Shown here: positions 49,219 through 52,107 of the stretch, one piece after another
How positions within the stretch are numbered: the stretch's first letter is position 1
Layout of the letters: every line of letters begins with the position of its first letter
Assembly (NCBI RefSeq): GCF_004217145.1
Contig: NZ_SHKR01000011.1
Coordinates: forward strand, 496,001-560,000
Direction: 5' to 3'
Source of the DNA: Kribbella rubisoli
Lineage (GTDB): Bacteria; Actinomycetota; Actinomycetes; Propionibacteriales; Kribbellaceae
DNA: 64,000 bases
Program-made: the position numbers and the translations under genes
The notes under the pieces: generated by a model
Database searches by the model: none
What the model was told of the DNA's origin: nothing
The model's input: only the letters and a program-made list of their open reading frames with translations

Positions 49219-49596
49219 ATGAAGTTCACCCAGGCATTCGAGATCACCCAGTGGGACCAGGCGGCGTACGACGAGGCAGGTTCGATCCAGCTCGGGCGGG
49301 CAACGGTCGGCAAGGCGTTCACCGGCGGCGAACTGGAGGGCACCAGTTCGGCCGAGCTGTTGATGGCGGGGACGGCGGACGGCCCGGCGGCGTACACCGC
49401 GATGGAGCGCTTCAGCGGGACGCTCGGCGGGCGGAAGGGGTCGTTCGTCATGCTGCACGGGGCAACGGCCGATCAGAGTTCGTCTCCTGGCCGGATCGTT
49501 GCGGCCGAGGGAGATCTGGCCGGGCTGACCGGCACGGTCGAGTATGTGCACGACGAGCAGGGCGCTCGGGTCACAGTGGACTACGAGCTGCCCTGA
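49219..49596 (+). CDS. DUF3224 family protein
   Basis: A 125-residue beta-barrel-like protein. [75 protein letters not shown] and [27 protein letters not shown] match DUF3224 (allene-oxide-cyclase-like barrel) over full length. Strong AGGAGGGG site 7 nt before ATG 49219. Function unknown. The 3' end overlaps the convergent gene by 16 nt. Confidence 0.88.
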
Positions 49597-50225
49597 TAAA
49601 CGTAATAGGTCTCGTCCCGGTCCTGCAGACGGACCGGGACGGGCGTGACCTGGCATTTGCCGAAGACCGTCGTGACGGCTGACTCCAAGGCAGCAGATGC
49701 AGACGACGACCAGACGGTGAGGACGCCGCCGTCGCGCAACTTCACCCGGCACGTGGCAAGGAAGTCGGAGGTGTAGATAGCTGAATTCTCGTTGTAAACA
49801 AGGAAGTCCGGACCGTTGTCGACGTCCAGCAGAATCGCGTCGACGGACGCGTCGGGCAGATCCGTGACGACAGCGCGCACATCGCCGACCACCACACCGA
49901 CCCGCGGGTCGTCGAGAATCGACGGGACCAGGCCTGAGCGCATCCACGCAACCAGGTCCGGCTCGATCTCCGCGACGATCACCTGCCCGAGACGGGAGTC
50001 GGCCAGCAGCGCACGCACCGTGTACCCGAGTCCCAGTCCGCCGACAAGCACCCGCTCAGGCCGCCGTACCGCCTCGAGCGCAGCAGAAGCCAACAGCTCC
50101 TCGCTGGACGTCTCCTGGTCGTCCATCACGAAGACGCCGTTCACCCGCAGCTCCAGCGCCCCATCCTCCCGACGCCGCAGTGCGAGCTCACCCCGCTCGC
50201 TGCAGGCCCGCGCAATCTCCGCCAC
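49581..50225 (-). CDS. Spermidine synthase-like class I methyltransferase-fold protein
   Basis: A 214-residue protein. The substrate-binding beta strands are [38 protein letters not shown]. The Rossmann core follows with [48 protein letters not shown] and [16 protein letters not shown]. It resembles polyamine aminopropyltransferase-fold proteins, but the catalytic D-x-Y pattern is replaced ([15 protein letters not shown]), so it may be a methyltransferase. GTG 50225 is chosen for optimal spacing to GGAGG. Upstream lies a perfect 31-bp hairpin. Confidence 0.78.
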
Positions 50226-50238
50226 GCACACATCCTCC

Positions 50239-50302
50239 CTCACCCATTGCGTCCGAAGATCTGCGGGCTGTAGCCCGCAGATCTTCGGACGCAATGGGTG
50301 AG
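50239..50302. repeat. Perfect 31-bp inverted repeat with 2-nt centre (hairpin repeat, copy A)
   Basis: Arms 50239-50269 and 50272-50302 are perfectly complementary over 31 bp with only GT between them. The inner 42 nt (50250-50291) match 51338-51379 at 36 of 42 positions. It sits in the divergent gap between the spermidine synthase-like and AbiEi/DUF559-like genes, so it is not an ordinary terminator. It could extrude as a cruciform. Confidence 0.85.
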
Positions 50303-50341
50303 TTCTCCACAGGTGAGGGAGTGCGGAGTCGGGGGTGAGGG

Positions 50342-51361
50342 GTGTCGCGGCATGTTGTCGGTATGACAGGGAGTGGATGTACAGGAGAAGCGCGCTGCGG
50401 GCACTGCAGCGCGCGCCGACGGCGCCGGCAACTTCGAGACCTGGCCAGAGAGCTGGGAAGCCAGCAGGCCGGCGTCGTATCGCGCTCCCAGCTTGCTGGG
50501 TTGGGGCTCACGCGTTGGCAGATCGCGGCCGAGCTGAGGGCGCGGCGCTGGGCGGCGTACCACCGTCAGACTCTCGCAATACACACCGGTGAGCTGTCTG
50601 AGCCGGCTACCTGGTGGTCGGCGATCTTCGAGGTCGGACCAGGTGCCGCCCTCGACGGGGCGACGGCTTTGCGCGCGGCAGGGATGCGCGGGTTCGACGA
50701 CGTACTGCACGTGTCGACGCCGAAGTCTTGCCGGCCACGCCGGCCACGCGACGTCCAGGTCCACGAGACGCGCCGCCGCCAGCCGGGCGATCTGGTCGAG
50801 GCCGGCCTGCCACGCGTCCGTCCCCCGATCGCTGCGATCAGAGCTGCGCTGTGGGCACGCTCGGACCGGCAGGCCGCCCTCGTGCTCGCCATGTCGGTGC
50901 AGCAGCGAATCACAACCTCCGAGGCCTTGACCACGGCATTCGCCGCTGTCCGGCGACATCGCCGACGGAACCTGATCGGTCTGGTTCTCGGCGACCTGGC
51001 CAAGGGTGCGCAGTCGATCGGTGAACTCGACTTCGCCCGCCTCTGCCGGACGTACGGCCTTCCTGAGCCTGATCGGCAAACCCGGCGGAGGGGGCCCCAT
51101 GGCGGCTATTACCTCGACTCCGCCTGGACGCCGTACGGCGCCGTCGTGGAGATCGAGGGAGTCCACCATCTGGAGGCTGCACAATCTCTGGCCGATGCCA
51201 GTCGGCAGAACGAACTCACGATCGGCAACGATCGCGTACTGCGGATCCCCGTCATCGGCCTTCGAGCCACCCCCGACCACTACATGGCCCAAGTAACCCG
51301 CCTCCTCCACTCCTGCGGTTGGCGGCCGACAACACAACGTCCGAAGATCCGAGGGCTATAG
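50342..51361 (+). CDS. AbiEi-like HTH plus DUF559/Vsr-like endonuclease-fold protein
   Basis: A 339-residue protein. Residues about 35-80 (RELGSQQAGVVSRSQLAGLGLTRWQIAAELRARRWAAYHRQTLAIHTG) match the AbiEi-type antitoxin wHTH. The C-terminal 100 residues (GGYYLDSAWTPYGAVVEIEGVHHLEAAQSLADASRQNELTIGNDRVLRIPVIGLR) match DUF559/very-short-patch-repair-like nuclease folds, with the D...E-x-G acidic residues. This fusion is multicopy in several actinobacteria. GTG 50342 or ATG 50363 may start it. Its stop codon lies inside repeat copy B. Confidence 0.65.
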   Translation: MSRHVVGMTGSGCTGEARCGHCSARRRRRQLRDLARELGSQQAGVVSRSQLAGLGLTRWQIAAELRARRWAAYHRQTLAIHTGELSEPATWWSAIFEVGPGAALDGATALRAAGMRGFDDVLHVSTPKSCRPRRPRDVQVHETRRRQPGDLVEAGLPRVRPPIAAIRAALWARSDRQAALVLAMSVQQRITTSEALTTAFAAVRRHRRRNLIGLVLGDLAKGAQSIGELDFARLCRTYGLPEPDRQTRRRGPHGGYYLDSAWTPYGAVVEIEGVHHLEAAQSLADASRQNELTIGNDRVLRIPVIGLRATPDHYMAQVTRLLHSCGWRPTTQRPKIRGL

Positions 51362-51379
51362 GCCACAGACCTTCGGACG
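51338..51379. repeat. Hairpin repeat, copy B (overlaps 3' end of AbiEi/DUF559-like gene)
   Basis: The outer arms CGTCCGAAG and CTTCGGACG are intact and the centre is degenerate relative to copy A (36/42 identical). It carries the TAG stop of the preceding gene at 51359-51361. It may act as a bidirectional terminator for the convergent genes ending at 51361 and 51403. Confidence 0.8.
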
Positions 51380-51402
51380 TAAGCACTGGGGGAGTGGAGA
51401 AG

Positions 51403-52107
51403 TCAGTACCAGCCCTTGGCCTGCGAGTGGCCCCAGGCGGAGCACGGGGAGCCGTAGGTGGCTTCGATGTAGTCCAGGCCCCACTTGATCTGGACGACCG
51501 GGTTGGTGCGCCAGTCCTTGCCGTACGCCGCCATCCGGTTGCCGGGCAGCGCCTGCGGGATGCCGTACGCCGTCGACGTCGGGTTGTCGGCGTCGACGCG
51601 CCAGCGGGACTCCTTGTTCCAGAGCTTCTCCAGGCAGCTGAACTGGCTCTGGCTCCAGCCGTGGTCGGGGAGGAGGTTCATCGCGACCTCCTTGGGCGTG
51701 CCCTCGTACTTCTTCCGCTCGGCGTCGCGGCTGGCCCGTTCTTCCTGGACCGAGCGGTCGGCCTGCTGCAGCGCCTCGTACCGGCGCAGGGCGGCGTTCT
51801 TGGCGGCGTTCTTCTGATCGGCCGCGTCCTGCAGCGCGATCTGCTGCTGTGCGACGGCCTCGACCTGGTTCCGCATCCGGACCGCGTCAGCGGCCGCGTC
51901 GGCGGCGTCGGTCGGCTTCGCGGTCGGCGACGTGGCCGGGCCGGAGAGGACCTTCCCGCTGTTGATAACGGCCATCTCAGCTCGCCCTGAGACCTTCTCC
52001 GAGGCGCTGCTACTCCCGGGGGAGCTGAAGAGGTCGATACCCGCGACAACGGAGACGACGGCGATCCCTGTAACCGCGAGAGCCGTGACGGAGCGCTTCG
52101 CTTTCAT
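51403..52107 (-). CDS. Secreted lytic transglycosylase-like protein
   Basis: A 234-residue exported protein. Residues 1-28 form a signal-anchor (VTALAVTGIAVVSVVAGIDLF). A long coiled coil (MRNQVEAVAQQQIALQDAADQKNAAKNAALRRYEALQQADRSVQEERASRDAERKKYEG) separates it from a C-terminal SLT-like domain. The domain has FSCLEKLWNKESRWRVDADNPTSTAYGIPQALPGNRM and WRTNPVVQIKWGLDYIEATYGSPCSAWGHSQAKGWY. The Glu of KES is the expected catalytic acid. Role: peptidoglycan cleavage. A small hairpin plus TTTT lies just upstream. Confidence 0.87.
   Translation of the reverse strand: MKAKRSVTALAVTGIAVVSVVAGIDLFSSPGSSSASEKVSGRAEMAVINSGKVLSGPATSPTAKPTDAADAAADAVRMRNQVEAVAQQQIALQDAADQKNAAKNAALRRYEALQQADRSVQEERASRDAERKKYEGTPKEVAMNLLPDHGWSQSQFSCLEKLWNKESRWRVDADNPTSTAYGIPQALPGNRMAAYGKDWRTNPVVQIKWGLDYIEATYGSPCSAWGHSQAKGWY

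Follow-up and report, generated by a model that had tools for sequence, protein, structure and literature searches.

The window analyzed here, a 64,000-nucleotide stretch of the Kribbella rubisoli genome, contains an open reading frame of 339 amino acids with a GTG start, designated P0001 (positions 50342 to 51361, plus strand), that is bracketed by two palindromes. Palindrome A (50239 to 50302, no strand assigned), which was found by inverted-repeat detection, is placed between a divergent methyltransferase-like gene and P0001; its perfect 31-nt arms (50239 to 50269 and 50272 to 50302) are 100% complementary and separated by a 2-nt loop, and its core reads CGTCCGAAGATCTGCGGGCT-gt-AGCCCGCAGATCTTCGGACG. 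In its extended form, TTGCGTCCGAAGATCTGCGGGCT-gt-mirror, the window palindrome consists of two halves of 23 bp with 2 bp between them. Palindrome B (51338 to 51379, likewise unstranded) is the second copy of the family. A recount from the sequence gave 36 of 42 nucleotides identical to the inner part of A, and a longer alignment (51338 to 51382) yielded 84% identity to A over 45 nt. The last codons and the TAG stop codon of P0001 fall inside palindrome B. Both neighbors, taken from the list of open reading frames (ORFs), are conserved: the left one (49581 to 50294, minus strand), which we take to be a spermidine-synthase/methyltransferase-like ORF, marks the syntenic site and probably has its true start near position 50228, and the right one (51403 to 52107, minus strand), presumably a transglycosylase (SLT)-like ORF, is convergent to P0001.

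The perfect upstream inverted repeat, the downstream copy of its inner 42 nt, and the stop codon within that copy had all been described in a sequence-only reading of the window, and all three were confirmed. That reading had also pointed to a TAG at the equivalent place of palindrome A, which is indeed present, and had taken A for the relic 3′ end of another gene copy. This last proposal did not stand: the TAG belongs to the self-complementary center of the palindrome (GGGCTATAGCCC and similar sequences), and because dispersed copies without this gene (L016, L018, and L019) carry such a center as well, a relic gene copy at palindrome A was ruled out.

Domain composition of P0001

The N-terminal part of P0001 (about residues 30 to 207) is AbiEi-like according to the PADLOC AbiEi profiles (E value, 7e-6); one paralog matched with an E value of 1.6e-16, and AbiEi_4 matches in other members of the family lay under the Pfam cutoff. 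The C-terminal part (about residues 223 to 330) is DUF559-like, with a score of 14.4 bits for DUF559 (PF04480) against a curated cutoff of 20.6, and weak DUF559 matches, none of them above the Pfam cutoff, were obtained for four of the seven other members scanned. In an alignment of 18 diverse members, residues D259, E270, G273, H276, D285, R288, and N290 are invariant, a set that we take to resemble the motif of DUF559/Vsr-like nucleases.

A structure model of P0001 computed with four input sequences was poor overall (mean pLDDT, 54.6), and poor at residues 57 to 160; for residues 190 to 330, most blocks reached pLDDT values of 70 to 89, and the modeled order of elements is a helix, three strands, a helix, a strand, and helices. 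Fold comparison of this low-confidence model returned AbaSI (Z score of 4.2) and XisH-type proteins (Z scores of 3.2 to 3.5) among unrelated entries, and every E value of a Foldseek search with the model was above 0.1. Among solved structures, the best match by sequence was a weak one to 3hrl, annotated as Endonuclease-Like Protein (E value, 0.13), and NCBIfam assigned no family for seven proteins. Judged from its sequence, the C-terminal part may tentatively be regarded as nuclease-like, of the Vsr type.

The syntenic site in 38 Kribbella genomes

The 8.64-Mb window genome (G000) was compared within a set of 38 Kribbella genomes, itself included, and the left neighbor was located in 37 of them. 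In 8 of the 38 genomes (G000, G001, G005, G014, G018, G021, G029, and G032), the gene is intact and has a palindrome on either side. Three others contain gene remnants, accompanied by two palindromes in G027, by one in G015, and by none detectable by pattern in G035, and in 27 genomes neither gene nor palindrome was present in the stretch read, which in 6 of these 27 does not extend to the right neighbor. At 11 of 12 gene-less sites inspected, the neighbors are 3 to 44 bp apart. Presence and absence of the gene at the syntenic site coincide with those of the palindromes; the latter differ among species and resemble one another within a species. Comparison with relatives thus revealed empty sites (8 of 38 intact, 27 of 38 empty), and presence of the gene at this site is not fixed among them. 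Remnants included, the gene occupies a single syntenic place, between the methyltransferase-like and the transglycosylase-like neighbor, across 11 species, and no Kribbella genome contains more than one ortholog.

The window genome itself carries the gene once, plus two remote paralogs with other palindromes. One of these (G000:C1:29006-29962) has two in-frame TAG codons and lies beside a GGGGAGGAT palindrome; the other (G000:C1:371702-372712) is intact and has TTCCGGAAC-type palindromes. In a sample of 197 genomes from 91 genera, relatives of the protein occur in 110 of the genomes and 59 of the genera, and genera other than Kribbella have as many as 10 in a single genome. P0001 had no match on 72,556 plasmid records, and none of 44 candidate stretches on viral contigs was confirmed as carrying the gene, which ruled out plasmid or phage cargo.

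Dispersed copies of the palindrome

The pattern CGTCCGAAGA-N16-24-TCTTCGGACG was scanned in the 38 Kribbella genomes, with the reversed pattern as a control. Exact matches were obtained in 22 genomes, the copy number across the set ranging from 0 to 65 per genome, and since the reversed control gave 0 matches in all 38, the repeat family exceeds chance. In the window genome, the exact pattern with its gap range gives 6 copies; with a looser pattern, 130 copies were counted in G018, and the range extends from 0 to more than 100 per genome. The idea of a dispersed cassette of gene and repeat was borne out in part: the repeat is dispersed, the gene is single copy at one place. Most palindrome sites in the window genome are without this gene. 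The suggestion that the nuclease-like gene belongs with the repeat was upheld across the gene family (see below), and the genome-wide repeat is not unrelated to that family. All 8 genomes with an intact gene contain copies, compared to 14 of the 30 without (Fisher P value of 0.012, uncorrected for descent). Many copies and no intact ortholog were found in G008 (36 copies), G024 (24), G002 (23), and G010 (11), which argues against strict dependence on the gene; gene loss would explain such genomes.

According to a crude gene caller, 43 distinct copies (39 of G018 and 4 of G000) are located in 20 convergent, 17 tandem, and 3 divergent gaps and, in 3 cases, inside a called gene; gaps in general, by the same caller, are convergent in 21, tandem in 46, and divergent in 16 cases. 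Copies often start 7 to 30 nt after a stop codon. When sites occupied in G018 were compared to the close relatives G037 and G014, one of four was clean and empty in both. Another G018 site has a copy in G007 and G027 as well, a decayed one in G015, and none in G028, G030, G008, and G010. In a second comparison of 17 pairs, the matching place of the relative was without the palindrome in 15 and with it in 2 (G014). Flanks joined across empty sites match unbroken in many cases, and no regular target duplication was seen among the occupied and empty sites compared.

Close doublets or triplets of palindromes, 74, 62, and 84 bp apart, were observed at G018:C1:2675230-2675345 (L134/L155), in G001:C61 (L156), and at G018:C1:3033619-3033828; two of the three cases lie directly at the gene, and they recall REP doublets (REPINs). 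G018 also contains a second, 43-bp subfamily with a GGAGGGACGTGTACTCC center (L104, L106, L111, L124, and others); no gene cognate to this subfamily was seen in G018, and it looks like an orphan family. The gene remnant of G027 is flanked by a type similar to it.

One way to read these data is that the gene and its two palindromes form an insertion sequence with palindromic ends, that the dispersed copies are MITE-like or solo-end derivatives, and that the whole element still moves occasionally. The unit of about 1.1 kb with one gene and matched ends, the empty site in relatives, and the several paralogs at different loci, numerous in other genera, are compatible with such an element. However, an ortholog confined to one syntenic place in 11 species, the lack of plasmid and viral matches, and the ratio of one gene to many palindromes speak against it, and near-identical gene copies at several sites or on mobile replicons, which define an insertion sequence, did not appear in the data examined. 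We therefore consider an insertion sequence unlikely.

Bracketing across the protein family

Bracketing was examined at 8 ortholog loci, 48 loci of Kribbella paralogs (about 27 to 34% identity), and 29 loci of other genera of the same class by matching the upstream against the downstream flank (score of at least 22). Matched flanks were found at 8 of 8 ortholog, 26 of 48 paralog, and 22 of 29 other-genera loci, compared to 3 of 184 ordinary genes, with P values of 4e-12, 4e-18, and 7e-21, respectively, uncorrected for shared descent. The 184 controls are ordinary Kribbella genes from a crude GC-based caller, so that their composition is unmatched for the other genera, and two of them scored high (40 and 53). 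Among the 22 paralog and 7 other loci that did not pass, some have imperfect pairs by eye and others none. An independent count of upstream palindromes alone gave 14 of 48 paralogs and 18 of 29 other loci versus 7 of 184 controls, by a palindrome finder that misses imperfect pairs picked up by flank reading and matching; where found, the upstream palindromes lie a short way ahead of the gene start. Loci of one genus share palindromes, which inflated the null of an earlier test.

The tree and the matching tests were run without L070 (a frame-broken F2-type gene of the window genome) and without L046 to L048, which were replaced by fuller loci of the same genes (L156, L153, and L155). The gene remnants of G027 and G015 (L064 and L067) stand outside both, L069 and L200 gave no tblastn match, and L216, from the window genome, was excluded from the class-level count. 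NZ_JAAGLV010000004.1 (L215), labeled Streptomyces sp. SID13031, groups with Kribbella, and its label is probably wrong.

In a tree of 56 proteins, the palindrome type follows the protein clade. The CGTCCGAA type (8 of 8) and the GGGGAGGAT type (5 members) each fall into one clade, as do the AGGGCGGC type (4) and the CTCGGCCCC type (3), and the TTCCGGAAC type is present in 6 members of a clade of 8. Palindromes of the form GGGGAGGAT-N-ATCCTCCCC are dispersed in 15 of the 38 Kribbella genomes, with up to 20 copies and 0 control matches. A gene of the GGGGAGGAT clade, assigned by tree or flank, is found in G000 (with two in-frame stops), G002, G013, G026, G029, and G033, and all six genomes are among those 15 (P = 0.002, likewise uncorrected for descent); in G013, two GGGGAGGAT-type copies bracket the paralog gene. 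A further family, with CATGATCAT palindromes, was present in all nine genomes tested from a different family within the class (11 to 118 copies) and had 0 matches in 11 genomes of other families. Its GTTCCCT subtype brackets the genes at C1:7587083-7588039 in G171 and C1:433097-434038 in G229, and its CAACCTT subtype brackets the gene at C3:2881987-2882970 in G191. As an additional observation, overlap of the stop codon with the downstream palindrome recurs in a second conserved clade (L180, L187, L190, L191, and L192).

Arms of the palindromes and RAYT genes

In four sets of copies, the complementarity of the inner arms within copies was compared to that between copies, giving z values of 1.8, −2.3, 1.2, and −1.0, i.e., no clear arm covariation in any set. 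This argues against a conserved hairpin and for duplex half-sites that are read separately by a protein. Non-covarying arms would also be expected if the palindromes served as operators for an autoregulator of the AbiEi type that controls a regulon; in that case, its own gene would be repressed through the upstream copy and others would be regulated through the dispersed copies, without any mobility. AbiEi proteins do autoregulate via inverted repeats (PMC7319586), and the position of the upstream palindromes, shortly ahead of the gene start, would suit an operator. The dispersed copies, however, follow stop codons (among 43 copies, 3 in divergent gaps versus 20 in convergent and 17 in tandem ones), which is the wrong place for operators, and the downstream copy at the gene coincides with its own stop codon. 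Furthermore, the copy number varies from 0 to more than 100 within one genus, and close relatives lack the palindrome at the majority of the sites compared. Operators of a regulon are thus an improbable explanation.

Positions past stop codons, often between convergent genes, would equally suit ordinary bidirectional terminators or RNA hairpins that occur at the gene by incident. We regard this as very improbable: the arms do not covary in the four sets, the gene is bracketed upstream as well, whereas such palindromes were found at only 7 of 184 ordinary genes, and the sequences are clade specific. A search of Rfam produced three hits, all below the gathering cutoff, and no family at that score; a terminator or RNA element was rejected on account of the non-covarying arms, the Rfam hits being subthreshold only.

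The RAYT family domain (PF01797, Y1_Tnp) was found in 1 of the 38 Kribbella genomes (G008) and not in the window genome, which ruled out RAYT as the driver; the sole Y1_Tnp gene in the set is located at G008:C7:51482-51820. That another, unrecognized transposase spreads palindromes merely captured near this gene family would account for the many copies in genomes without an ortholog, but hardly any weight can be given to it, as each of several separate palindrome families goes with a clade of its own within one protein family and RAYT is absent from 37 of 38 genomes.

A proposed REP-like system

In our judgment, the data probably reflect a system that resembles a REPtron but relies on an unrelated protein, one that would bind its cognate palindromes and probably also cut them and spread them. 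At its center would be a resident, vertically inherited protein in which an AbiEi-type DNA-binding part is fused to a DUF559/Vsr-like nuclease part. The protein would recognize its cognate palindrome of about 42 to 50 bp as duplex half-sites of about 20 to 23 bp. The pair of copies beside its own gene is probably ancestral or regulatory, the upstream one being the likely operator and the downstream one overlapping the stop codon. Palindromes or similar sites are probably nicked or cut by the nuclease part, and subsequent repair or copying could produce further copies behind gene ends. Each clade of the protein has a palindrome family of its own, and decay of the gene could leave an orphan palindrome family behind. 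The association of gene and palindromes rests on observation, and binding, cutting, and copying or spreading by the protein are inferred; the presumed dependence of the palindromes on this protein is the weakest link.

The balance tips slightly toward a more general form of this proposal, in which a large family of AbiEi-DUF559-like proteins across actinomycetes, to which no function has yet been assigned, is the dedicated enzyme of an HUH-independent, REP-like class, each clade recognizing and spreading its own palindromes as duplex half-sites and shaping gene ends genome-wide. To our knowledge, dispersed bacterial palindromes have so far been tied to one enzyme type, RAYT. A single-copy gene of the soil genus Kribbella between two copies of a dispersed palindrome, and many relatives of it in other actinomycetes that have matched palindromes of their own, suggest an undescribed kind of enzyme-plus-palindrome genetic system; searches of open-access papers yielded no description of it. 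If this is true, REP-like systems would have more than one origin, a function could be given to a large set of AbiEi/DUF559-like genes, and the proteins with their naturally matched half-sites of about 20 bp would lend themselves to the study of DNA recognition.

Comparison with known systems

With DUF559 (PF04480)/Vsr-like nucleases, P0001 shares the C-terminal motifs, the predicted alpha-beta order, and weak profile matches, its own score being under the curated cutoff. In the titles and abstract openings of open-access papers that mention DUF559, no link to palindromes was found.

The AbiE type IV toxin-antitoxin system has the AbiEi-type DNA-binding N-terminal domain in common with P0001, as judged by profile match. 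AbiEi and its Mycobacterium relative Rv2827c each bind their cognate inverted repeats of 23 bp but not those of the other protein, and the AbiEi repeats are 3 bp apart (PMC7319586); the 23-bp halves of the window palindrome, 2 bp apart, are alike in this respect. P0001 differs in its nuclease-like C terminus and in its palindrome, which also occurs 3′ of the gene and dispersed genome-wide. No AbiEii (DUF1814)-like toxin partner is apparent by inspection among the neighboring ORFs, because one of these is methyltransferase-like, the other is SLT-like, and both are conserved in relatives; a toxin-antitoxin system was tentatively set aside for lack of an apparent partner gene in this neighborhood.

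Di Nocera et al. (2013) described a second, CGTC-tagged class of REPs apparently without a dedicated transposase (PMC3733652). Like the palindromes studied here, these are dispersed and start with CGTC; in that class, CGTC is an unpaired tag at one end, whereas here the opposite end carries GGACG, with which CGTCC pairs. The terms Actinobacteria and Kribbella were not found in the text of that paper.

In its anatomy, the system corresponds to the REPtrons of RAYT (TnpA-REP) proteins. According to published reports (PMC8266576, PMC3733652), RAYT genes are mostly single-copy chromosomal genes that are not mobile, are inherited like housekeeping genes, and are flanked by their own dispersed palindromes, which lie mainly past gene ends. 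The system described here likewise consists of a single-copy gene flanked by a dispersed palindrome family. REPtrons encode an HUH Y1 tyrosine transposase; the bracketed gene here encodes no such enzyme and instead an AbiEi-DUF559-like protein, and since this protein is unrelated, the system is not a RAYT system. Unlike REP/RAYT elements, the palindromes are 42 to 50 bp long, have non-covarying arms, and are without the unpaired GTAG tag. Should the proposed steps of binding, cutting, and spreading hold, the system would work like a REPtron.
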